NCBI GenBank assembly: GCA_005798775.1
Contig: SYIM01000003.1
Location: 1-45,980, forward strand
Direction of reading: 5' to 3'
Source: Burkholderiales bacterium
GTDB lineage: Bacteria > Pseudomonadota > Gammaproteobacteria > Burkholderiales > Burkholderiaceae_E
Length of the DNA: 45,980 nucleotides
Below the pieces are notes generated by a model. It did not search any database. It was not told where the DNA came from and saw only the letters and a list, made by a program, of their open reading frames with translations. The position numbers and the translations under genes are program-made. Below are positions 10,731-27,243 of the stretch, piece after piece (positions within the stretch are counted from its first letter, which is position 1; the number at the start of each line of letters is the position of its first letter).

Positions 10731-10768
10731 CAGCGCCGATTACCAGTATCCACCATGAAAGCATGACC

Positions 10769-12064
10769 ATGCATCCGCACGCACGCCTGCCCGACAGCCT
10801 GAATGACTGCCTGGCGCTCGACCATAACGATCCACTTCGCGCCTTGAGCGAGCAGTTCATCCTGCCTGAGGGAATCATCTACCTCGATGGGAATTCTCTC
10901 GGCGCCTTGCCGCAGGCGACCGCAGCACGAGTAAACGATGCCGTCACCAGGCAGTGGGGTCAGGGCCTGATTCGCAGTTGGAACGAAGCGGGGTGGTTTG
11001 AACTGTCGCAGCGCGTGGGTGACCGGATCGCGCGTCTGATTGGCGCGGGCGAGGGCGAGGTGCTCGCGGTGGATGGCACCTCCATCAACCTCTACAAGGT
11101 TCTGTGCGCGGCGCTTGATCTTGCGTCGGCGCGAGGCGCGCAGTCGCTCACCGTATTGAGTGAAGGGGGCAATTTTCCCACTGATCTCTATATTGCCGAA
11201 GGGGTGTGCCGTGAGCGGGGTGCCTCGCTTCGTTCCGTAGAGTCCTCTGGGCTCAACGCGGCCCTTGCAGCCGGCGTCGATGTGGTCATGCTCACTCACG
11301 TCAACTTTCGAACCGGCGCGATGCACGATATGGCGGCGCTCACACGCTGCGCGCAGGCGGCCGGCGCGTTGGTGATTTGGGATCTCGCGCACAGCGCGGG
11401 GGCGGTACCGGTGGACCTGCATGGGGCCAATGCAGACTTCGCTGTCGGCTGCGGTTACAAATACCTGAATGGCGGACCCGGCGCACCCGGCTTTGTGTGG
11501 GTACATCCGCGCCATGCCGACCGTGCGCTTCAACCGCTGTCAGGGTGGTGGGGGCACGCAGCGCCGTTCGCATTCACGCCGGGCTATCGCCCGGCGCCAG
11601 GGATCCTCCGCTACCAGTGCGGCTCCCAACCCATCCTCAGCCTGATCGCACTCGACGAAGGGTTGAATAGCGTGCTTGCAGCCGAGTCGCTGGGGGGCAT
11701 CACGGCGCTCCGCGCCAAATCGCTCGCGCTCACCGAACTTTTCATTCGGCGTGTTGAACCTCTGCTGACCGCGCATGGCTTTGGTTTAGCCACGCCCCGC
11801 GAGCACACTGCGCGGGGCTCACAGGTGAGCCTCACGCGAAGCGAAGGCGCCTACGAAATCATTCAGGCGCTGATCGCGCGCGGCGTCATAGGTGACTTCC
11901 GTGCGGGCGACGGTGCCGCGCACCCCGACATCCTGCGCTTTGGCTTTACGCCGCTTTATGTGGGGTTTGCCGATGTGTGGCGCGCGGCTGACCACCTTCA
12001 GGCGGTCATGGCAAGTGGCGAGTGGCGCGCACCGCAGTTCGCTTTGCGGCACGCGGTCACCTGA
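10769..12064 (+). CDS. kynU: Kynureninase
   Basis: IYLDGNSLGALP, RSWNEAGWFELSQRVGDRIARLIGAGEGEVLAVDGTSINLYK, GCGYKYLNGGPGAPGF (PLP lysine); exact start ambiguous (10763 or 10769). Confidence 0.92.
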   Translation: MHPHARLPDSLNDCLALDHNDPLRALSEQFILPEGIIYLDGNSLGALPQATAARVNDAVTRQWGQGLIRSWNEAGWFELSQRVGDRIARLIGAGEGEVLAVDGTSINLYKVLCAALDLASARGAQSLTVLSEGGNFPTDLYIAEGVCRERGASLRSVESSGLNAALAAGVDVVMLTHVNFRTGAMHDMAALTRCAQAAGALVIWDLAHSAGAVPVDLHGANADFAVGCGYKYLNGGPGAPGFVWVHPRHADRALQPLSGWWGHAAPFAFTPGYRPAPGILRYQCGSQPILSLIALDEGLNSVLAAESLGGITALRAKSLALTELFIRRVEPLLTAHGFGLATPREHTARGSQVSLTRSEGAYEIIQALIARGVIGDFRAGDGAAHPDILRFGFTPLYVGFADVWRAADHLQAVMASGEWRAPQFALRHAVT

Positions 12065-14331: not shown

Positions 14332-16626
14332 TTGTCGAATCCGGCACCCCACGCGTCTGTCTCCTCGACCGCCTCGCCCACCGCTTCCCCGATCCGATAT
14401 GCGCGCCGCGAGGATCACCGGCTGATCACGGGTGCGGGCCGCTTCAGTGCTGACCACGCGGCGCCTGGCATGCTGCACGCCTTCGTCATTCGATCGCCCC
14501 ACGCGCATGCCCGGCTCCTGCGCTGCGACCTCGCAGCGGTGCGGGCGGCACCCGGCGTGCGCCTGGCGCTTACCGCGGCCGAGATCGAATCTGACGGCGT
14601 GAAGGAACTCCCCAATCTGATGGAAGTGAGTTCGCCCGACGGCGAACCGCAGCGTGTGGTGCTGATGCCCGTGCTCGCGCGCGATTGCGTGCATTTCGTC
14701 GGTCAACCGGTTGCGTGGGTGGTGGCCGACTCGGCCTCGCAGGCCTGCGAAGCGGCGGACCGTGCCGAGATCGATTATGAAGAATTGCCGGTGGTGACCG
14801 ACTTCGATCAGGCGCTCACACCGGGCGCCCCGACGCTGCACCCTGATGTGCCAGGTAATCTATCGGTTCAATATGAAGCGGGCGATCGCGCGCTGGTGGA
14901 TGCAGCCTTTGCGTACGCCGCACATATCAGCCGTCTCAAAATCGTGAGCCAGCGGCTGATCGGCGCACCGCTGGAGCCACGCGCGGTGCTCGCGGTTCAC
15001 GACTCTGCCACCGACCGCACCCGGCTTTACGCGCCCACGCAGGGCGTGCCAAGCATGACCAAGCAGATGTGCGCGGCGACCGGATTTTCGCCAGAGCAGT
15101 TCGACATCGTGAGTCAGGATGTGGGCGGCTCATTCGGTTTGCGTGCCAGTCCCTATTCCGAACATGTACTCGCGGTGCTGTCGGCGCGCCAACTGAATCG
15201 GCCGGTCCGCTGGCTGGGTACGCGCTCGGAGATTTTCCTGAGCGACTGGCATTGCCGTGCACTCACGCTGGATGGCCAGATCGCCCTCGATCGCGACGGT
15301 AATTTCCTGGCATTCCGATTTGAGGACACCGTCGATCTGGGCGCGTATGTGGTGTTCGCCGGCACACTGGTCGGCACACGTAACCTGTCGGTCTCGATGG
15401 GTGGCGCTTACCGGGTGCCTGCGCTCCACATGAGTTCGCGTCTTGCCTACACCAATACCGTACCGGTCTCTGCCTACAGGGGGGCAGGACGGCCCGATAT
15501 CGCCTATGCCATCGAGGCGTTGATTGATCACGCGGCGCGCGAGCACGGCTTTGACCGTATTGCGCTGCGACGAAGGAATTTCATTACGCCGGATGCGTTT
15601 CCATACCGCACCGCCAACGGGACCCTCTACGATCACTGTCACTTTGCCCGCCTGCTCGACAGGGCGCTCGAGCTGTCCGACTTTGACGGATTTGCAGCGC
15701 GGCACGCGGCGGCCGAGCGGCAGGGAAGGCTGCGCGGCATCGGGTTGGGGAGCTGGCTCGAGGTCTCCGGCATGGGCTCGGCGCCGCACGATTCAGTCCG
15801 CGGTGAGTTTGACGCTGACGGCCAGCTCATCGTACTGGGTGCGACCGGGGCCTCGGGGCAAGGCCATGAGACTTCGTTTGCAACCCTCGTCGAAGAGGCG
15901 CTCGGTTTACGCGCTGATCGCGTGATCTATCGCGCCGGAGATCACGGCGTGTCATTGGTTGGAAATGGTACCGAAGGGTCGCGCACCATCTACGGCGCGG
16001 GTAGTGCCATCACCGTGATGTGCGAGATTATCCGCGAACGTGTACTTGTGCTGAGGCGCGCCCGCGCGGAACCCGACGAGCCGCCCGCTGATCTGTCGGC
16101 CTGGGTGCGTACGCTCGACTCGGACGAACGCGCGCAACTTGCGGTTGAAGCGCAGGCCAAGTCGGGAGCCACGTTTCCCAACGGCTGCCACGTGGCCGAG
16201 ATCGAAATCGATCCCGCCACCGGTTGTACCGAACTCGTTCGCTATGTATCAGTTGACGATGCGGGGCGTGTTATTTCCGAGCAACTGGTGCACGGTCAGA
16301 TGCAAGGCGGCGTGGTTCAGGGCTGGGGACAGGCATTCTGCGAAAACACGGTCTACGATGAGCGTGGCCAACTGAGTTCGGGCTCCTTCATGGACTATGC
16401 CATGCCGCGCGCCGGTAACGTCCCGGCGCTGGTGAGCGACAACCTGCCGCTTCCCACCACGCTCAACCGCACTGGAGCCAAGGGCGTTGGCGAGTCTGGC
16501 TGTACGGGGTCGCTGCCCGCGCTTGCCAATGCCATGAGCGATGCGCTCGCTGCGCGGGGCGCTTCGGCGATCGATATGCCGTTTACCGCCGCCCGAGTTT
16601 GGGCGGCGCTCCATCCTGAGACCTGA
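14332..16626 (+). CDS. Xanthine dehydrogenase / CO-dehydrogenase family molybdopterin-binding large subunit (form-II-type)
   Basis: RREDHRLITGAGRF, AYRGAGRPDIAYAIEALID, GASGQGHETSFA, GVGESGCTGSLPALANA; TTG start. Confidence 0.88.
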   Translation: MSNPAPHASVSSTASPTASPIRYARREDHRLITGAGRFSADHAAPGMLHAFVIRSPHAHARLLRCDLAAVRAAPGVRLALTAAEIESDGVKELPNLMEVSSPDGEPQRVVLMPVLARDCVHFVGQPVAWVVADSASQACEAADRAEIDYEELPVVTDFDQALTPGAPTLHPDVPGNLSVQYEAGDRALVDAAFAYAAHISRLKIVSQRLIGAPLEPRAVLAVHDSATDRTRLYAPTQGVPSMTKQMCAATGFSPEQFDIVSQDVGGSFGLRASPYSEHVLAVLSARQLNRPVRWLGTRSEIFLSDWHCRALTLDGQIALDRDGNFLAFRFEDTVDLGAYVVFAGTLVGTRNLSVSMGGAYRVPALHMSSRLAYTNTVPVSAYRGAGRPDIAYAIEALIDHAAREHGFDRIALRRRNFITPDAFPYRTANGTLYDHCHFARLLDRALELSDFDGFAARHAAAERQGRLRGIGLGSWLEVSGMGSAPHDSVRGEFDADGQLIVLGATGASGQGHETSFATLVEEALGLRADRVIYRAGDHGVSLVGNGTEGSRTIYGAGSAITVMCEIIRERVLVLRRARAEPDEPPADLSAWVRTLDSDERAQLAVEAQAKSGATFPNGCHVAEIEIDPATGCTELVRYVSVDDAGRVISEQLVHGQMQGGVVQGWGQAFCENTVYDERGQLSSGSFMDYAMPRAGNVPALVSDNLPLPTTLNRTGAKGVGESGCTGSLPALANAMSDALAARGASAIDMPFTAARVWAALHPET

Positions 16627-16631
16627 AGCCC

Positions 16632-17924
16632 ATGTCAGCCAAGCCCGTGAACGAACTCAGTGCCTTCGTCGCGGCGCGCCTGCTTCAGCGCCGTGACCTC
16701 AGTGCCGAAGCGTATGTGGAGGCCTGCCTTGCGCGCATCGAGGCACGCGAATCGCTGATCGGCGCCTTTGCCTATATCCGCCCTCAGCAGGTACGCGAGC
16801 AGGCACGGGCCCTGGACCGTGGGCCGATACGCGGCCCGCTGCATGGTCTCACCGTTGGCATCAAGGATGTCTTTGATACCCGTGACATGCCCACGCAGGG
16901 CGGTTCGGAGGCCTTCCGCGGCCACCAGCCTGCAACCGATGCAGCGGTGATCGCATTGCTGCGTGGAGCGGGCGCCGTGATGCTTGGTAAAACCGTCACC
17001 ACAGAGCTCGCGACCTTTCCTCCCAACGGTACGCGTAACCCGCGCGATCCAGCGCATACCCCGGGCGGATCGTCATCGGGCTCAGCCGCTGCAGTGACTG
17101 ACTGCATGGTGCCCTTTGCCACTGCGACTCAAACACTGGGTTCCACGATTCGACCCGCCGGATACTGTGGTGTCGCGGGCTACAAGCCCACCTACAACCT
17201 CCTGCCGCGCCGCGGCGTGTGGCCGAACGCCGAGTCGGTCGACACGGTCGGACTGATGGCGCGTGACGTGCGTGATGTGGCGATGCTTGCGGCTGCGGCC
17301 GGCCACTATCCAGCGCTGGCATTCGATGACGAAGCTGTCAACGCGGCGCCTGTCATCGGGTTCTGCCAGACCTGGGAGTGGTCACGAGCTGATTCGTTCA
17401 TACACACTGCGTTTGAAGCCTGTCGCAGTCAGCTGGCTGCCGCCGGCGCGAGGGTCATTGCCATTGAGTTACCCGCATCGTTTCGCGGTCTTCTCGAAGC
17501 GCACCGCATGGTGGCGTGGTACGAGATGGCGCGCGGCTTTGCCGATATCGTGGCGCACGATGCCAATCGTATCCGTAAGCCACTCCTCGACCGAACGCTC
17601 GCAGGGCTCGAGGTCTCGCCCGCCTCCTACATGGCTGCACAGGCGCTGGGACGCGCCTGCCGCGAGCAGTTGGCCGACGTGTTTGGCCAGTGTGACGTGC
17701 TGTTTGCGCCAGCCGCTACAGGTGAGGCGCCCGCCGGACTGGAGAGCACCGGCGATACCTCAATGAACCAGATCTGGACGTTCCTTCACGGCCCTAGCGT
17801 ATCGGTGACCGGCGGGTTCGGCCCGAACGGCTTGCCGCTCGCGATGCAGGTGCTGGGCCGGATCGGCGACGACGCTCGGACGCTGCGCGCTGCGCGCTGG
17901 GTCGAGCGAGTGCTGGGGCGCTGA
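16632..17924 (+). CDS. Amidase (amidase signature family)
   Basis: GLTVGIKDVFDTRDMPT, HTPGGSSSGSAAAVTDCMVPFATATQTLGSTIRPAGYCGVAGYKPT. Confidence 0.9.
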   Translation: MSAKPVNELSAFVAARLLQRRDLSAEAYVEACLARIEARESLIGAFAYIRPQQVREQARALDRGPIRGPLHGLTVGIKDVFDTRDMPTQGGSEAFRGHQPATDAAVIALLRGAGAVMLGKTVTTELATFPPNGTRNPRDPAHTPGGSSSGSAAAVTDCMVPFATATQTLGSTIRPAGYCGVAGYKPTYNLLPRRGVWPNAESVDTVGLMARDVRDVAMLAAAAGHYPALAFDDEAVNAAPVIGFCQTWEWSRADSFIHTAFEACRSQLAAAGARVIAIELPASFRGLLEAHRMVAWYEMARGFADIVAHDANRIRKPLLDRTLAGLEVSPASYMAAQALGRACREQLADVFGQCDVLFAPAATGEAPAGLESTGDTSMNQIWTFLHGPSVSVTGGFGPNGLPLAMQVLGRIGDDARTLRAARWVERVLGR

Positions 17925-18528: not shown

Positions 18529-19821
18529 TCAACCCATCAGCCCGGGCAGCCAAAGCGCGATCGAGGGCACCGCCACCAGCAGCGACACCCTGATCAGGTC
18601 TGCAGTGACGAATGGCGCAAGCCCGCGGAAGATCGTGCGTGTCGCAATATCGGGCTGTACCTGATGGAGCACGAAAACGTTAAGCCCGACCGGTGGGGTG
18701 ATGAGCGCCACCTCAACCATGGTGACCACCAGAATGCCGAACCAGACCAGGTCATAGCCCAGACTGCTCACGATCGGATAAAACACCGGCACGGTCAGGA
18801 ACAGCATGGACATTGAATCGAGAATGCAGCCCAGCACCAGATAGACGAACAGGATCAGCACGATCACCATCCATGGTTTGGAAGCGATGCTCTGCACCGA
18901 GGCGCCCAGTGCCTTGGGAACGCCGGCGATGTCAATGAAATTGGAGAACACCAGCGCGCCGATCAACAGAATGAGAATGGAGCAGGTAGAGCGCGCCGCA
19001 TCGAGCAGCACCTCGATGAAACGGCCGCCTCCCAGTTCTCGGCGTACCGCTGCAAACAGAAATCCGGCGAAGGCGCCTACGCCCGCTGCCTCGGTGGGGG
19101 TGAACACACCGAGGTAGATACCGCCAATGATGAAAAGAAACAGCGCGGCCACCGCCCAGACTTTGCGCAGGCTCCTCAAACGCTCACGGGCTGGCGTCCG
19201 TTCGCCGGGTTTGCCGCTATCCGGATGCCGCCATACCGACCACAACACCGCACCCACATAAAGCAGTGTGCCCAGAAGTCCGGGGATCACTGCCGCAATG
19301 AAGAGCTTGCCTACGTCGGTACGGGTCATGAAGCCGTAGATCAGAAGCGGCACCGATGGCGGAATCATGATGCCCAGCGTTGCACCCGCTGCAACCGAGG
19401 CTGAGGCGAGTGAATCGGCGTAACCAAATCGTCGCATCGGGGGTAGTGACACCTTCGCCATGGTGGCTGCGGTGGCAAAGCTCGACCCGCAGACGCTTGC
19501 GAAGCCCGCGCTGGCGATGACTGATGACATGGCAAGGCCGCCTCGAAGGTGGCCCACGAACGCATTGGCCGCGCCGAACAATTCATCCGAGAGCCGCGAA
19601 GCGGTGATGAATCCACCCATCAGGATGAAGAGGGGAATGACCGAGAGTTCCTCATTCATCACGGTGTTAAAGCCCACCTGTCCCACCATGGCCAGCGCAG
19701 CGGGCACGCCCTGCAGGAGCGCGAATCCGCCAAAGCCGATCAGGAGCAGACCGAAGGCAATGGGCAGTCCTGCAAAGAGCAGTGCGAACAGCAGGAGGAA
19801 CGCGCCGATCGCAAGTGTCAT
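18529..19821 (-). CDS. TRAP transporter large permease (DctM family)
   Basis: 430 aa; VIPLFILMGGFITASRLSDELFGAANAFVGHLRGGLAMSSVIASAGFASVCGSSFATAATMAKV, PPSVPLLIYG. Confidence 0.94.
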   Translation of the reverse strand: MTLAIGAFLLLFALLFAGLPIAFGLLLIGFGGFALLQGVPAALAMVGQVGFNTVMNEELSVIPLFILMGGFITASRLSDELFGAANAFVGHLRGGLAMSSVIASAGFASVCGSSFATAATMAKVSLPPMRRFGYADSLASASVAAGATLGIMIPPSVPLLIYGFMTRTDVGKLFIAAVIPGLLGTLLYVGAVLWSVWRHPDSGKPGERTPARERLRSLRKVWAVAALFLFIIGGIYLGVFTPTEAAGVGAFAGFLFAAVRRELGGGRFIEVLLDAARSTCSILILLIGALVFSNFIDIAGVPKALGASVQSIASKPWMVIVLILFVYLVLGCILDSMSMLFLTVPVFYPIVSSLGYDLVWFGILVVTMVEVALITPPVGLNVFVLHQVQPDIATRTIFRGLAPFVTADLIRVSLLVAVPSIALWLPGLMG

Positions 19822-19822
19822 C

Positions 19823-20314
19823 TCAGGATCTGCCTGGCTCGGCGTGACGGGAAAACAGACTGCGCAGAGCGAGCGTACCGAGCATCAACGCGCCGATCAT
19901 CGCGGCAGTAGCCATCAGGTAGCCAAGCGGTGCATAGGGAAAATTCAGTACTGGCGTGGTTTCGTCCATCGCGCCGAGTTTGCCCGCATGTACCCCGATC
20001 CGCCACGCCAGAAAACCGGTTCCGGCTGCGCTCACGCCATGGATCAGAAACAGGCGGACTCGCTGAACCGCGCCACGAAACAGATGATCGAAAAGACCTA
20101 GCGACAGATGTTCGTTGGTCCGGCAGAGAAGCGGTAGCGCCGTGAACGTCAGCGCGCCCATCTGCACCTGGATCATTTCGTAGCCCGCAGGTAACGGACT
20201 GGCGAACAGATACCGACCGCCGACATCGATCGCGACCGTGAGCATCAGACAGAAGAGCTGCGTCGCCACCAGGAAGCCGAGCGCCCGCACAGGCAGGCTG
20301 GAGCGGCGGGTCAT
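19823..20314 (-). CDS. TRAP transporter small permease (DctQ family)
   Basis: 163 aa, four predicted TM segments, VGGRYLFASPLPAGYEMIQVQMGALTFTALPLL; directly upstream of dctM. Confidence 0.87.
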   Translation of the reverse strand: MTRRSSLPVRALGFLVATQLFCLMLTVAIDVGGRYLFASPLPAGYEMIQVQMGALTFTALPLLCRTNEHLSLGLFDHLFRGAVQRVRLFLIHGVSAAGTGFLAWRIGVHAGKLGAMDETTPVLNFPYAPLGYLMATAAMIGALMLGTLALRSLFSRHAEPGRS

Positions 20315-20329
20315 AGAGAGCCCTCGGAA

Positions 20330-20356
20330 GTCGGGCGCGCGGGCTGCGCGCCCGAC
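20330..20356 (-). promoter_or_regulatory. Intercistronic RNA hairpin between dctP and dctQ
   Basis: Perfect 11-bp inverted repeat GTCGGGCGCGC-GGGCT-GCGCGCCCGAC immediately after the dctP stop; no U-tract. Confidence 0.7.
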
Positions 20357-20359
20357 CCC

Positions 20360-21385
20360 TTATTTATGTGCCGCAATGCTGGCTTTGAGCACAGCGAGTG
20401 CCGCCTTGGCATCGATACCGGTGGCCTGCGCTGACTTCAGCCAGTCGTCTTCAAAGGAGCGCAATGCTGATTCGAGCTCGGCGAGGTAAGGGCCCGAGGC
20501 CACCGTGACCTCCACGCCAGCGGTCTTCACGTTTTCGCGCGACTTGGCGGCCTCGGCATCCCAGTTGCGTCCGGCGATCCGGGACAGGCGCTCGCCCGAA
20601 AGCTTGAGAATGGCATCGCGGTCCGCCTGGGACAGCTGATTCCACTTGGCCTTGTTCACGCCAAAGAAGAAGGTCGCTGAGTAGATTCCCTTTGGGAAAT
20701 CGAGCAGATATCGGATCGTGCCCTGCAACGAAAAATCGGTGAACGATGAGGCGTCGATGAAGAGTCCATCGGTAACCCCTCGGCGCACCATCTCGGCGGC
20801 CTGCGGGCCAGGCGCGCGAATGCCCACGCCGCCCAGAGCTTTGGCGATATCCACGTTGATCGCAGCGCCCCCAGCGAGCTTCATGCCGTTCCAGTCAGCC
20901 ATTGACTTGAGCGGCTTTTTCGAAGTCCAGACCCGTCCGGGTTGAGCGGCCCAGATAGCGAGCAACTGAATACCGGCGTGTTCGTCGCGCGAGGCGAAGT
21001 GCTTGTCGGTCACCTGCCAGAGCGCCACAGACAGGGGTTCAGACAGGTCAGATAGGAACGGAAGTTCGCCCACCCGGGCGAGCGGGAAGCGCTGCGGGGT
21101 GTAGCCGTGCACGCTGAAAACTGCTTCGACGATGCTGTCTTTCACCATATCGAGCTGGGTGGGCGGCGGGCCCAGGCTGCTGGCAGTGACCTCAAAGCGG
21201 ACCCGCCCTTGCGTGGCGGTGGCCACTTCATCGGCCCAGGGCTTGATCGTGCGCGTCATGATCGGGTGGGTGGGCGGCAGCCAACCGTTGATGCGGAACA
21301 CGGTTTGCGCCTGGGCGGCAGCGCCCGCCAGGGTCAGGCTGAGCGCAAGGGTAGCGCCGGATAGGACGCGATGCAGACGGATCAT
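20360..21385 (-). CDS. TRAP transporter substrate-binding protein (DctP family)
   Basis: Signal peptide ALSLTLAGAAAQAQT; FRINGWLPPTHPIMTRTIKPWADEVATATQGRVRFEVTASSLGPPPTQLDMVKDSIVEAVFSVHGY. Confidence 0.92.
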   Translation of the reverse strand: MIRLHRVLSGATLALSLTLAGAAAQAQTVFRINGWLPPTHPIMTRTIKPWADEVATATQGRVRFEVTASSLGPPPTQLDMVKDSIVEAVFSVHGYTPQRFPLARVGELPFLSDLSEPLSVALWQVTDKHFASRDEHAGIQLLAIWAAQPGRVWTSKKPLKSMADWNGMKLAGGAAINVDIAKALGGVGIRAPGPQAAEMVRRGVTDGLFIDASSFTDFSLQGTIRYLLDFPKGIYSATFFFGVNKAKWNQLSQADRDAILKLSGERLSRIAGRNWDAEAAKSRENVKTAGVEVTVASGPYLAELESALRSFEDDWLKSAQATGIDAKAALAVLKASIAAHK

Positions 21386-21631: not shown

Positions 21632-22966
21632 ATGCCTGTTACTGATTCGCAGGATCTTCGGTCGCTGGTTCGCCCGGATCGGGTCCATCACTCCGTTTAC
21701 GCTGATCCGGCATTGTTCAAGCTGGAGCTCGACCGTCTATTCGGTCGGACCTGGCTGTTGCTGGGCCATGCCTCGCAGGTGGCCCATCCCGGAGACTGGT
21801 TCACCACGCGAATGGGGCGCTTGCCGGTCATCGTGTCACGCGACGCGTCCGGTGCTGTGCGCGTTCTGGTCAATCGGTGTACGCATCGTGGCGCGCTGAT
21901 CTGTCATGAATCCAGCGGTCATTCGCGCGCCTTCGTGTGCCCCTACCATGGCTGGGGCTTCGAACTGGACGGTCGCCTCACTGGCGTGCCGGTGCCGCAG
22001 GGCTATGGTGCACAACCCCAGCGGATGTTCGCCGAAATGGGGTTACGCGCGGTGCCGCGGGTGGATCTCTACCGTGGCTTCATCTTTGCCAGCCTGTCGC
22101 CCTCGGGGCCTGATCTGGTCGACTTTCTCGGGCCGCTTGCGAGTTCATTTGATGATCTGGTCGATCGCGCACCCGACGGCGAAGTCGAGGTTGCCGGTGG
22201 CGTGTTCAAACACACTTACGAGGGTAACTGGAAGCTGGTGCTGGAAAATCACCTTGACGGTGTGCATCCCACCCACGTGCACATCTCGTCGGTGCATGTG
22301 GCGCGTGACGCGCCCGATCCCGGTCAACCGGAAAAATATGCCGATATTTCAATTCGGCAGATGCGCCAGAACGGTACGCCCGAACCGGTATGGGAGGCCG
22401 TTGGCATGTGGACCAGCGACTGGGGCCACGGCTACATGGGTGACTACCACTCCGATGGTCGGTTGGTGGTGGGGCTCAACAATCCAGTATTTGCGGAATA
22501 CCGAAAGCGGCTCGAGGGGCGGGTGGGCGCCGATGAAGCGCAGCGTATTCTGGGCGTCACGCGCTGGAACACCATCATCTATCCGAACGTGTCCTTCATG
22601 AGCCAGTTTCGGCAGTTGCGGATCGTTCACCCGCTTGCCGTCAATCGCACCGTGGTCTACACCTACAACCTCAGGCTGAAAGGCGCGCCCGAGCAGATGT
22701 TTCGCGATACCGTCGCGTTTTCCAATGTCGTGAACGGCACCGCATCCTGGGTGCTGACCGACGATCTCGAAGTGTATGGGCGGGTTCAGAAAGGACTGGA
22801 GTCGGCCCAGCCTGAGTGGGTGAATCTGGCGCGCGGCGTGGGGGGCGATGTGCCTGATGGTGCGCTTCTACGGGGCGGAACCGGTACGAGTGAAATATTC
22901 ATTCGTCGGCAGTTCGATACCTGGCTGCGTTATATGTGCGCCGATAGCTCAGGGAGCGCAGCATGA
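21632..22966 (+). CDS. Aromatic ring-hydroxylating dioxygenase, Rieske alpha subunit
   Basis: Rieske CTHRGALICHESSGHSRAFVCPYHGW; mononuclear iron ENHLDGVHPTHVH. Confidence 0.93.
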   Translation: MPVTDSQDLRSLVRPDRVHHSVYADPALFKLELDRLFGRTWLLLGHASQVAHPGDWFTTRMGRLPVIVSRDASGAVRVLVNRCTHRGALICHESSGHSRAFVCPYHGWGFELDGRLTGVPVPQGYGAQPQRMFAEMGLRAVPRVDLYRGFIFASLSPSGPDLVDFLGPLASSFDDLVDRAPDGEVEVAGGVFKHTYEGNWKLVLENHLDGVHPTHVHISSVHVARDAPDPGQPEKYADISIRQMRQNGTPEPVWEAVGMWTSDWGHGYMGDYHSDGRLVVGLNNPVFAEYRKRLEGRVGADEAQRILGVTRWNTIIYPNVSFMSQFRQLRIVHPLAVNRTVVYTYNLRLKGAPEQMFRDTVAFSNVVNGTASWVLTDDLEVYGRVQKGLESAQPEWVNLARGVGGDVPDGALLRGGTGTSEIFIRRQFDTWLRYMCADSSGSAA

Positions 22967-23481
22967 CGCGTCCTGCCGCTTCGCAGCCAGCCGACTTCGA
23001 TACTGCGCGCTTTGCTCGAATGGAGGACATTCGCCAGTTCCTGTTTCATGAAGCGCGTCTGCTTGATACCCACCAATTCGAAGACTGGCTCGCGCTCTTT
23101 ACCGATGATTCCACCTATTGGGTGCCACTCGAGGCTGCCCAGACCGATCCGCTGAGCACTTCGTCGATTATTCACGACGATCGAACGCTACTCGAGTTGC
23201 GCGTGCGCCAGATTACCCATCCCAGGGCGCATGCGCGGCGACCGCTCGCCCGGACCGTCCATCAGATCGGGAATGTTCAAATTCTCTCTAAGGACGCCAG
23301 CGAGCTGCGGGTGGCCTCCACGCTCATTCTGCTTGAGTACCGTCCCGAAGTGCAGCGTAGCTGGGCTGCGCTGGTCGAGCACCGCCTGCGGCGGGTCGAT
23401 GGGCGGCTCGCGATCGCAGCCAAGCGCGTCAACCTCATCAACTCCGAGGCGGAGTTGCCCGGCATTGCGTTTCTTCTTTGA
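22963..23481 (+). CDS. Aromatic ring-hydroxylating dioxygenase, beta subunit
   Basis: FLFHEARLLDTHQFEDWLALFTDDSTYWVPLEAAQTDPLSTSSIIHDDRTLLELRVRQI; overlaps alpha stop. Confidence 0.92.
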   Translation: MTRPAASQPADFDTARFARMEDIRQFLFHEARLLDTHQFEDWLALFTDDSTYWVPLEAAQTDPLSTSSIIHDDRTLLELRVRQITHPRAHARRPLARTVHQIGNVQILSKDASELRVASTLILLEYRPEVQRSWAALVEHRLRRVDGRLAIAAKRVNLINSEAELPGIAFLL

Positions 23482-23756
23482 GCGTCGATGCGCCCGATCG
23501 TTCAATGACTTCGGTCTCACCTGACTTTCTCGGTGTGACCGTGAATACCGTGTTGCCAGGGGTGGTTCTGTACGGTCTGCAATCCAGTCGTCTTCCTGAC
23601 GCCTACAAGCAGATGATTCTCGGGATGCAGTGCATCGCTGAACCCCTCGGCTGCGACGCCATCGCCAATGCGGTCGCTTTTCTCTGTTCGGAGGCGGCAC
23701 GCTTCATCACCGGTCAAGAGCTTGCAATCGATGGAGGGCTCACACATGGCGGCTGA
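23478..23756 (+). pseudogene. C-terminal remnant of an SDR-family dehydrogenase (Rossmann GxxxGxG, Ser and YxxxK parts missing)
   Basis: 92-aa ORF ends GVTVNTVLPGVV...CDAIANAVAFLCSEAARFITGQELAIDGGLTHGG, the classical SDR C-terminus. Confidence 0.82.
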
Positions 23757-25221
23757 TTCATTCGCGGCACCGAAGGTTTGGCTCGACCTCGATCAGGCAG
23801 CGCTCGACCGCGCCTATGATCAGGCGCCGCATGCCCCCAACATGCAGCAGGTGCTCAAGCGCTATGAACTCGCGAGTGAGCGCGCGCACGGCCGGCTTGG
23901 CGCGCCCTCGAGGCATCGTTATGGACCGACTGAAGCGGAGGCGCTTGATTGCTTCAGGCCTCGGTCTCGCAGCACTTCACAAGGTCTCCTGCCCGCGTTG
24001 CTCTTCGTCCATGGCGGGGCATGGCGTGGCGGGCTGGCACGAAACTATGCGTTCATCGCCGACTCGTTCATCGACCGGGGCTGCGCGGTGCTGATCCCCG
24101 ACTTTGCGCCGGTCACCGAACTCGATGGCGACCTGGGCCGTATGACCGACCAGATCCGTCGCGCGATCGCCTGGGTATCGGCCAACGCCGAGGCGCTCGG
24201 TATCGATCCTGCGCGTATCCATCTGTTAGGGCATTCGTCGGGCGGGCATCTGAGCGCAGCCGCATTGCACACGAATTGGGCGTCGGAATTTTCGCTACGC
24301 ACGCATTCACCGGTGGCGAGCCTCACCGTGTGCAGCGGCATCTACGAACTGCAGCCGGTGCGCTTGTCGGCCCGGAGCGACTATGTGAGGCTGTCAGAAG
24401 ACCAGGTGAATGCGCTCAGCCCCATTCGCCATGTGGCGGCCCTGACCACGCCGCTTACGGTCGCCTGGGGTTCGCTCGAGAGTCCGGAATTTCAGCGTCA
24501 GGCGAACGACTATGCAGCGGCTGCCGAGGCGGCAGGGCGCGCGGTGACGCGGTGCGTCGTGGAAGGCTGCAATCACTTTGAAATTCTCGAGACGCTCGCG
24601 AGCCCCTACGGTGTATTGGGCCAGATGCTGCTCGAACGGGTGGCGGCGGTGGGGGCGACTCGCGGGCGATGGGTGTCAACGGGCGGGGCTTCGGCAGGTG
24701 GCGCAGCGCCGGCGGCCGGAGAGGCACCCGCTGCCTCCACAGGGCGGACGAGCGATGGGCGCGCTGACCTGCACTGGATGCAACTCGCGCTTGCCCAGTC
24801 TGTGGAAGCATTCGAGCGAGGCGACTGGCCGACCGGCGCTGTGCTGGTTCGCGACGGCCAGTTGCTCTCGACCGGCCAGAACCGGCAGGTCTCGCAATGC
24901 GACACCACTGTGCACGCCGAGACTGACGCCATTCGGCGTGCCGAAGCCATCCACGGGGTCGGTAGCACGCAGGGGGCAACCCTCTATTGCACGATGGAGC
25001 CGTGTCCAATGTGCGCCGGGGCTCTCAGGAATGCGGGCGTCGTGCGGGTAGTGCTCGCACTCCGACACGCAACACTCAAACGAACCGATCTGGGCCCCTA
25101 CCGGCTTGAGGACTTCTTTACCCTTACTGGTTGGCAACCCGAGCTGAACAGCGGCCCCCTTGAGGGCGACTACCTTGCGCTCAGACGTCGATGGGGCCGG
25201 GACCCGGTCAGAAGCGGCTAG
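23746..25221 (+). CDS. Fusion protein: alpha/beta-hydrolase (arylformamidase/esterase-like) + zinc-dependent CMP/dCMP-type deaminase domain
   Basis: N-half HGGAWRGGLARNYAFIADSF and LLGHSSGGHLSAAAL; Ala/Gly linker; C-half WPTGAVLVRDG, HAETDAI, CTMEPCPMCAGAL; one uninterrupted ORF, likely ATG 23746. Confidence 0.9.
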   Translation: MAADSFAAPKVWLDLDQAALDRAYDQAPHAPNMQQVLKRYELASERAHGRLGAPSRHRYGPTEAEALDCFRPRSRSTSQGLLPALLFVHGGAWRGGLARNYAFIADSFIDRGCAVLIPDFAPVTELDGDLGRMTDQIRRAIAWVSANAEALGIDPARIHLLGHSSGGHLSAAALHTNWASEFSLRTHSPVASLTVCSGIYELQPVRLSARSDYVRLSEDQVNALSPIRHVAALTTPLTVAWGSLESPEFQRQANDYAAAAEAAGRAVTRCVVEGCNHFEILETLASPYGVLGQMLLERVAAVGATRGRWVSTGGASAGGAAPAAGEAPAASTGRTSDGRADLHWMQLALAQSVEAFERGDWPTGAVLVRDGQLLSTGQNRQVSQCDTTVHAETDAIRRAEAIHGVGSTQGATLYCTMEPCPMCAGALRNAGVVRVVLALRHATLKRTDLGPYRLEDFFTLTGWQPELNSGPLEGDYLALRRRWGRDPVRSG

Positions 25222-25262: not shown

Positions 25263-26243
25263 TTACTCGAGCGAGAGTTTCTGCTGGGCGACCACCTGGC
25301 GGTACACCTCGAACTCGGCCTTGATCTGCGCAGCGAATTCGGCGGGGCTGTTGCCAATCACGATCGATCCGGTATCTTCGATACGCTTGCGAACCGCCGG
25401 ATCTTCCAGCGCTTTGCGGGCGGCCGCGTTGATCCGCTCAATGATGTCGCCCGGCAGACCCTTCGGCGCCAGAATGCCGTAGTACGCCATCCGGTTCACC
25501 GGCTCCAGGCCTACTTCCTTGAAGGTCGGGACATTCGGTAGCACCGCCAGCCGCTGGGGAGCAGCCACGACCAGCGGCACCAGCCGGTTGGCCTGCACGA
25601 ATGGTAATGCCGAGGGAATGTTGTCGAAGATGATGGGCACTTGGCCGGCGACGGTATCGTTCAGTGCCGGGCCCGCACCACGATAGGGGATGTGGGTCAC
25701 GAATACGCCCGCCAGGCTTTTAAACAGCTCGGTCTGAAGATGACCGATCCCCCCAGTACCCGACGAAGCGTAGGAATACTTGCCGGGCTTGGATTTCAGC
25801 TCATCGATAAAAGATTTGTAGTCACGTGCCTGGAAGCTGGGGTGCACCGCAATCAGGTTAGGCGTTGCAGCAATATTGATGATGGGCGTGAAGTCGGTGA
25901 CAGGGTTATAAGGGATCTTTGGATTGATCGCAGGGTTGGCGGCGGTGGTTGAGACCGTGGCCATGCCAAGCGAGTAGCCATCCGGTGTGGCTCGAACCGT
26001 TTCGGTAGCGCCGACCACGCCGCCGCCGCCTGCCTTATTTTCAATCACGACCGGCTGGCCGAGTGCCTTGCCAAGCGGCTCAGCGATCACCCGCGCAATG
26101 ATGTCGGTGGTGCCGCCGGGCGCGAAAGGCACCTGCAATTTGATCGCACGGGTGGGATAGGAAGCTTGGGCTATTGCCGCGGCACTGGCAAGGGTGAGCG
26201 CGGCAAGCGAGGCGGTAAGTGCAGCGCGGCGAAGGAGTTCCAT
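25263..26243 (-). CDS. Bug/TctC-family tripartite tricarboxylate transporter substrate-binding protein
   Basis: SYPTRAIKLQVPFAPGGTTDIIARVIAEPLGKALGQPVVIENKAGGGGVVGA; likely start MELLRRA at 26243. Confidence 0.93.
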   Translation of the reverse strand: MELLRRAALTASLAALTLASAAAIAQASYPTRAIKLQVPFAPGGTTDIIARVIAEPLGKALGQPVVIENKAGGGGVVGATETVRATPDGYSLGMATVSTTAANPAINPKIPYNPVTDFTPIINIAATPNLIAVHPSFQARDYKSFIDELKSKPGKYSYASSGTGGIGHLQTELFKSLAGVFVTHIPYRGAGPALNDTVAGQVPIIFDNIPSALPFVQANRLVPLVVAAPQRLAVLPNVPTFKEVGLEPVNRMAYYGILAPKGLPGDIIERINAAARKALEDPAVRKRIEDTGSIVIGNSPAEFAAQIKAEFEVYRQVVAQQKLSLE

Positions 26244-26355
26244 GGATTGACTCCGGTATGAAGATAATGAGGAGAGAGCGGAGAAAATGTACTCGAGTTC
26301 GCGATACGCGCCAAACCCTACCCGGTAGCAACACCGGAAATTCCTGGAAACCCTG

Positions 26356-27243
26356 ATGACTACTGCCGACATCCGCTGCGTCACCGATCATGCCACGTCC
26401 ATCGGCGAGGGCCCGCTCTGGGTCGCGCGCGAGCGGGCCCTGTACTGGGTTGACGTGGGCCTGGAGCCCAAGACGCTCCACCGCTACAGCCCGCAAAGCG
26501 GTCTCACCACCACCTGGAAGCTGCCGCAGCGCGCTTCCGGCGTGCGCGAGCGCGCCGACGGCAGCCTGCTGATTCACTTCCAGCGCGGCCTCGCGATTAC
26601 CGATCCGTCGCCCGATCAGCTTCGCTGGCTGCCGCTCTGGGGCATTGATTTCTCGATCCAGCGCCTGAACGACAGCGCGGTTGATCCCGCCGGCCGGCTC
26701 TGGATAGGCTCCTACGAACGCACGCTCAAACAACCGCTCGGCGAGTTGTATCGGATCGATGGCAGCCTGATCGCAGCCACCGTTGACCGGGGTTTTCAGG
26801 TCTCGAACGGCATCGCATTCAGCCCCGATGGCCGCACCATGTATCACACCGACACGCATCCCGAAGGGCACATCTACGCCTGGGACTGTGACGCGGCAAC
26901 GGGCGAGGTCGCCAACCGCCGGCTTCTGATCAGCTTCGTGGGTCGTCGTGGCCATCCCGACGGCTGCACGATCGATGCTGAGGGCATGCTGTGGGTGGCG
27001 GAACTTGGCGCCTCGCAGCTCGTGCGTATCGATCCGCAGGGTCGGATCGAACGCGAGCTGCGCCTTCCTGTGAGCCGCCCCACCAGTGTGGCCTTTGGCG
27101 GCCCCGATCTGCGCACGCTCTACGTCACGTCCATGACTTTCAGGCTGGACGACGCGGCGCGGGCCCGCGAGACATGGGCCGGGCGCCTGCTCGCCTTCGA
27201 ACCTGGCGTTCAGGGATTGGCGCTGCCCAAGCTCGGGTTCTGA
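26356..27243 (+). CDS. SMP-30/gluconolactonase/LRE family protein
   Basis: SIGEGPLWVARERALYWVDV, SNGIAFSPDGRTMYHTDT, GHPDGCTIDAEGMLWVAELG. Confidence 0.93.
   Translation: MTTADIRCVTDHATSIGEGPLWVARERALYWVDVGLEPKTLHRYSPQSGLTTTWKLPQRASGVRERADGSLLIHFQRGLAITDPSPDQLRWLPLWGIDFSIQRLNDSAVDPAGRLWIGSYERTLKQPLGELYRIDGSLIAATVDRGFQVSNGIAFSPDGRTMYHTDTHPEGHIYAWDCDAATGEVANRRLLISFVGRRGHPDGCTIDAEGMLWVAELGASQLVRIDPQGRIERELRLPVSRPTSVAFGGPDLRTLYVTSMTFRLDDAARARETWAGRLLAFEPGVQGLALPKLGF

Follow-up and report, generated by a model that had tools for sequence, protein, structure and literature searches.

A rare fusion of an alpha/beta hydrolase and a zinc deaminase encoded behind a ring-hydroxylating oxygenase in freshwater Burkholderiales

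Introduction

In the iad pathway of Variovorax, IadI, annotated as a kynurenine formamidase, acts in a pathway begun by IadDE (PMC12633357). The locus described here lies in a stretch of 45,980 nucleotides (contig SYIM01000003.1), referred to as the window, from a Burkholderiales MAG that is 78.5% complete. Both systems comprise a related Rieske oxygenase, a dehydrogenase and an amide-hydrolase-type enzyme (IadCDE and IadI in the iad pathway), and the iad pathway provides, by analogy, an example of a formamidase-type enzyme working where such an oxygenase opens the route. The names given to the iadC-K2 steps include no deaminase (PMC12633357), whereas the window encodes one, fused to the hydrolase.

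Each half of the fusion has described relatives. With HaHSL-, BD-FAE- and kynurenine-formamidase-like hydrolases (9n8r, 2pbl, 4e11), the hydrolase shares the HGG motif, the GHSxGG nucleophile elbow, an acidic residue (E/D) and a His, but the C-terminal deaminase is a feature of the fusion. The deaminase has the HAE + PCxxC zinc site in common with TadA and with guanine and cytosine deaminases; it differs from them by a C-terminal signature of its own (RHAxLxRTDLGxYxxExF...YLALRxRWG) and by its catabolic gene context. Standalone deaminases of Variovorax, Pseudorhodoferax, Pseudacidovorax and other Burkholderiales are 59-76% identical to the fused domain. Unlike it, they are unfused, and their genes nearly always stand head-to-head with a TRZ/ATZ amidohydrolase gene.

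Results and Discussion

Structure of the fusion gene

The initial annotation had described a single-ORF fusion of a hydrolase and a deaminase. This is confirmed: the frame is uninterrupted over 491 codons up to a TAG stop, Pfam recognizes both domains, and the architecture recurs in three genomes (Table 1). HGGAWRGG (aa 89), GHSSGGH (aa 162), the Ala/Gly-rich linker (beginning at aa 311), HAE (aa 390) and PCPMC (aa 419) are all arranged as initially described, and the zinc deaminase core is complete, as had been claimed, with all four of its residues present. The Pfam matches were BD-FAE/Abhydrolase_3 at aa 68-277 (E = 2.7e-17) and dCMP_cyt_deam_1/MafB19-deam at aa 341-440 (E = 9.6e-23).

Upstream of 23746, the frame stays open for 129 more bases. 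The Met at 23746 has counterparts in all three fusions, and in all three genomes the gene beginning there overlaps the SDR stop by 11 bases; this Met is therefore favoured as the start. In the AlphaFold model (mean pLDDT 57.5 overall), most of the deaminase was placed with high confidence, with many blocks above 90, while confidence was low for the hydrolase and very low for the linker. The low value for the hydrolase is probably due to the few sequences (three) covering this domain.

Table 1. Features of the fusion gene and its surroundings in the window (domain limits in aa are approximate).
Feature	Position	Strand	Remarks
TRAP genes DctM, small permease, DctP	18529..21385	-	Divergent from oxygenase operon; DctM and DctP matched in profile search
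Small TRAP permease	19823-20314	-	Assigned by position and synteny only
Rieske ring-hydroxylating oxygenase alpha subunit, IadD-like	21632..22966	+	
Ring-hydroxylating oxygenase beta subunit	22963..23481	+	
Truncated SDR gene	23505..23756	+	Overlaps fusion start by 11 bases; full length in G001 and G004
Fusion gene (hydrolase, linker, deaminase), 491 aa	23746..25221	+	ORF and Pfam; conserved in G004 and G001
Alpha/beta hydrolase domain, aa ~11-300	23776..24645	+	Pfam, solved relatives, alignment of 51 relatives
Oxyanion HGG	aa 89-91	+	Invariant among 51 relatives
Nucleophile Ser164	24235-24237	+	Invariant among 51 relatives
Acid Glu245	24478-24480	+	Always E/D among 51 relatives
His277	24574-24576	+	His in 49/49 relatives not gapped there (51 aligned)
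Variable linker, aa ~305-338	24658..24759	+	Fast-evolving, in-frame indels only; pLDDT 23-33 for aa 301-330
CDA-fold zinc deaminase domain, aa ~341-484	24766..25197	+	H390, E392, C420, C423; Pfam, alignment, mostly confident model
Bug/TctC-type receptor gene	25263..26384	-	Convergent with fusion, 41 bases between; similar to Bug-like genes in other loci

Recurrence and selection

Two further MAGs of the window's genus carry the fusion, giving three genomes of one genus. The same two-domain ORF is encoded on CAIPNM010000010 (genome G004, locus L029), with 92% identity to that of the window, and on VGHA01000005 (G001, L030), with about 72% identity. The linkers vary in sequence and length across the three genomes, and every indel is in frame. 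Values of dN/dS across the three fusions were 0.13-0.17 for the hydrolase, 0.07-0.15 for the deaminase and 0.33-0.72 for the linker; synonymous changes greatly exceed non-synonymous ones in either domain, and both domains are under purifying selection. The initial annotation had considered that a stop or frameshift in the linker might separate two genes, but the frame is kept in all three linkers. Its presence in three genomes, with the frame kept, led us to reject a chance or frameshift artefact; the fusion is no artefact of assembly or annotation.

Our scan of 84,980 species genomes relied on two peptide patterns and reaches close relatives only. A plasmid collection searched with the fusion gave no record covering 80% of the query. 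That the two families normally occur as separate proteins, as stated initially, agrees with our data: apart from the fusion, members of the deaminase subfamily stand alone (33 loci), and standalone relatives of the hydrolase were seen as well. Nor is the fusion a well-annotated common architecture, as it is confined to one genus in the collections searched and no description of it was found in the open-access literature. It is a genuine but rare domain combination, a new one of known families, in a small group of freshwater Burkholderiales. The three fused deaminase domains form one group in a tree (support 77/77), which is compatible with a single origin without proving it.

Gene neighbourhood and oxygenase

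As first noted, the fusion gene closely follows the genes of a ring-hydroxylating oxygenase, and the order RHO-alpha, RHO-beta, SDR, fusion is conserved in all three fusion genomes. Upstream, each of them has TRAP genes (DctP/DctM) and a TetR gene in divergent orientation and, farther out, genes for an amidase and for the large subunit of a Moco-dehydrogenase; downstream of the fusion there is a convergent Bug-type receptor gene. The receptor gene in the window was named from its sequence and had no NCBIfam match. In the window, the Moco-dehydrogenase large subunit and then the amidase occupy 14332-17924, and no small or medium subunit was recognized among the genes annotated. A kynureninase gene (10763-12064; 276.7 bits, above the TIGR01814 cut-off) lies ~11 kb from the fusion. 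Compared with L029, the SDR gene of the window has an in-frame deletion of ~531 bp (177 codons). The break falls at a ~12-bp repeat (near 23530-23541), and only the first few and the last ~80 codons remain; the deletion may be real or an assembly error of the MAG.

Among solved structures, 7yls/8h2t matched the alpha subunit best (295 bits). We take it to be IadD, the indole-3-acetate (IAA) oxygenase of Variovorax; this fits the text of PMC10374108. Nine IAA-pocket residues of IadD are listed (PMC10374108). Matched by hand on the printed alignment, five of the nine differ (L211/H207, F251/N247, H311/W312, K322/M323 and Y362/F363), and the Fe ligands H216/H221 are kept. Given these pocket differences, the gene was not identified as an IAA oxygenase, and IAA is an unlikely substrate. 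We infer that the operon may act on an N-containing aromatic or heteroaromatic acid. Orthologues of the alpha subunit (63-71% identity) occur in four other genomes without the SDR-fusion pair, so that the oxygenase can do without it. At one locus (L176), an orthologue (67%) is found near a salicylyl-CoA 5-hydroxylase-type gene scoring above its cut-off, together with a TetR 53% identical to that of the window.

Hydrolase domain and its standalone relatives

The hydrolase exceeded the Pfam cut-offs of PF20434 (63.4 bits; cut-off 26.8) and PF07859 (36.8 bits; cut-off 25) and has the nucleophile elbow and triad of the alpha/beta hydrolase fold (BD-FAE/Abhydrolase_3). Its best solved relatives were 9n8r (lipase 1), with an alignment covering nearly the whole domain, and 2pbl; kynurenine formamidase 4e11 matched more weakly (E = 5.4e-9). 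In the NCBIfam search, the fusion reached no equivalog cut-off, and no arylformamidase model was among the matches. Of the initial label 'arylformamidase/esterase-like', an alpha/beta hydrolase with an intact core stands, and 'arylformamidase' reduces to a generic resemblance. Membership in the hormone-sensitive lipases (HaHSL) was rejected, with 114.5 bits against an NCBIfam cut-off of 320.

In most of the 20 loci examined, the standalone relatives (41-52% identity) have a Bug receptor gene as neighbour; FAD monooxygenases, a CoA-transferase-like gene or an aconitase-family gene occur in several of these loci. Several of these hydrolases are convergent with the Bug gene, like the fusion in the window; as their Bug proteins are only ~32-37% identical to that of the window, this orientation was set aside as evidence. 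In Shinella, a 39% relative belongs to a gene block with oxygenase alpha and beta subunits and a reductase. This plasmid block (L108:3152-9697) further includes a glutamine-synthetase family gene and a gamma-glutamyl-GABA hydrolase gene, and presumably resembles aniline-type pathways.

Proposed function

We lean slightly towards the fusion being a bifunctional catabolic enzyme that acts after the Rieske oxygenase, late in the breakdown of an N-containing aromatic or heteroaromatic acid. On the same reading, the fusion would have originated when a hydrolase gene became joined to a deaminase gene whose family is otherwise active in TRZ/ATZ-type heterocycle catabolism. In favour of the catabolic reading are (i) the single ORF with both cores, found in three genomes, with selection on both domains and a conserved operon; (ii) the standalone deaminases, 28 of 33 paired with a TRZ/ATZ amidohydrolase gene, and the sub-threshold TadA scores of the fused copies, with a true TadA present in G004; (iii) the standalone hydrolases beside Bug receptors, some with FAD monooxygenases or, in Shinella, with an oxygenase; and (iv) IadI in the pathway that IadDE starts. 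Against it stand the four oxygenase orthologues without the SDR-fusion pair and the truncated SDR in the genome of the window.

In the proposed scheme, the acid would be taken up via the TRAP and Bug-type genes, oxygenated on the ring by the IadD/E-like Rieske oxygenase and dehydrogenated by the SDR. An amide-, ester- or formamide-type bond may then be cleaved via Ser164-Glu245-His277 of the hydrolase. In the deaminase, carried on its flexible linker, Zn2+ held by H390/C420/C423 would activate water, with E392 as the predicted proton shuttle, and NH3 would be released from an amidine- or enamine-type C-NH2. Hydrolysis and deamination could be the last two steps in either order. The reactions proposed are those of the two enzyme families; we infer the catabolic role, the order of the steps and the service of both sites to one pathway. 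Sequential coupling of the two sites is plausible but unproven. More tentatively, at somewhat below an even chance, the fusion may be a new bifunctional enzyme of an undescribed pathway, hydrolysing an amide or ester in an oxygenated N-heteroaromatic intermediate and deaminating the product on the same chain.

Standalone hydrolase and standalone deaminase were not found as adjacent genes in the loci and genomes searched, and thus gene linkage outside the fusion adds no support for coupling. Together with the different neighbours of the two standalone families, this suits an alternative in which the link is physical only, the activities belonging to different reactions (e.g. those of a general esterase and of a purine/pyrimidine-type deaminase) and the deaminase having been joined by chance behind the hydrolase gene of the operon. 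The confinement of the fusion to one genus points the same way, as does a member of that genus, G002, with the deaminase alone in another context (L031). We nevertheless consider a purely physical link rather unlikely, because both domains and the operon position have been kept under purifying selection across 72% identity.

If the two activities prove to be sequential, the fusion would offer a compact means of removing nitrogen from N-aromatics in fresh water. The fusion joins a deaminase subfamily widespread in heterocycle-degradation clusters of Burkholderiales to a hydrolase associated with Bug receptors and with oxygenases of aromatics, and identifying its substrate would help to assign both standalone families.

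Deaminase domain and its subfamily

The deaminase belongs to the CDA-fold zinc deaminases: it matches PF00383, HAE and PCxxC are invariant in the alignment, and Foldseek led to TadA structures. The solved folds nearest to its model were TadA (TMt up to 0.87), followed by cytosine, guanine and guanosine deaminases. By sequence as well as fold, these best solved relatives would fit a housekeeping enzyme of nucleic acids (TadA-like) or nucleotide salvage that rides on the operon. Identity with TadA, the tRNA A34 deaminase, was rejected, as the fused copies scored 71.9-77.4 bits against the NCBIfam NF008113 cut-off of 150; moreover, separate genes above this cut-off are present in G004 (184 bits) and G002 (190 bits), and the standalone subfamily sits in heterocycle-catabolism clusters. 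A housekeeping role is therefore improbable. More improbable still, and hardly to be expected, is translation of the deaminase on its own, alongside the fusion or as the main product, from a start codon inside the linker. Candidate starts are a GTG at V310 in the window and an ATG close by in G004, but the three linkers have no start codon in common and their frame is kept throughout.

The standalone set comprised 33 loci, 31 from the genome scan and two from further genomes. In 28 of them the deaminase gene is head-to-head with that of a TRZ/ATZ amidohydrolase, at 37-107 bp from match to match. The exceptions are L031, L045, L054, L056 and L057; in L056 and L057, another ATZ gene, an amidase and PuuE are nearby. 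Clusters with a standalone deaminase also carry PuuE-, AtzE- and AMDase/EutA-type genes, and L037 a D-hydantoinase. From this gene context, the subfamily probably consists of catabolic small-molecule deaminases. The fused deaminase is a member of this uncharacterized subfamily tied to TRZ/ATZ amidohydrolases.

In Comamonadaceae and relatives (L032-L061), the head-to-head pair and the PuuE-, AtzE- and AMDase-type genes form a conserved catabolic cluster, for which no description was found in the open-access literature. Several standalone deaminases, e.g. those of L041, L042, L044, L048, L051 and L055, have kynureninase genes within ~10 kb.
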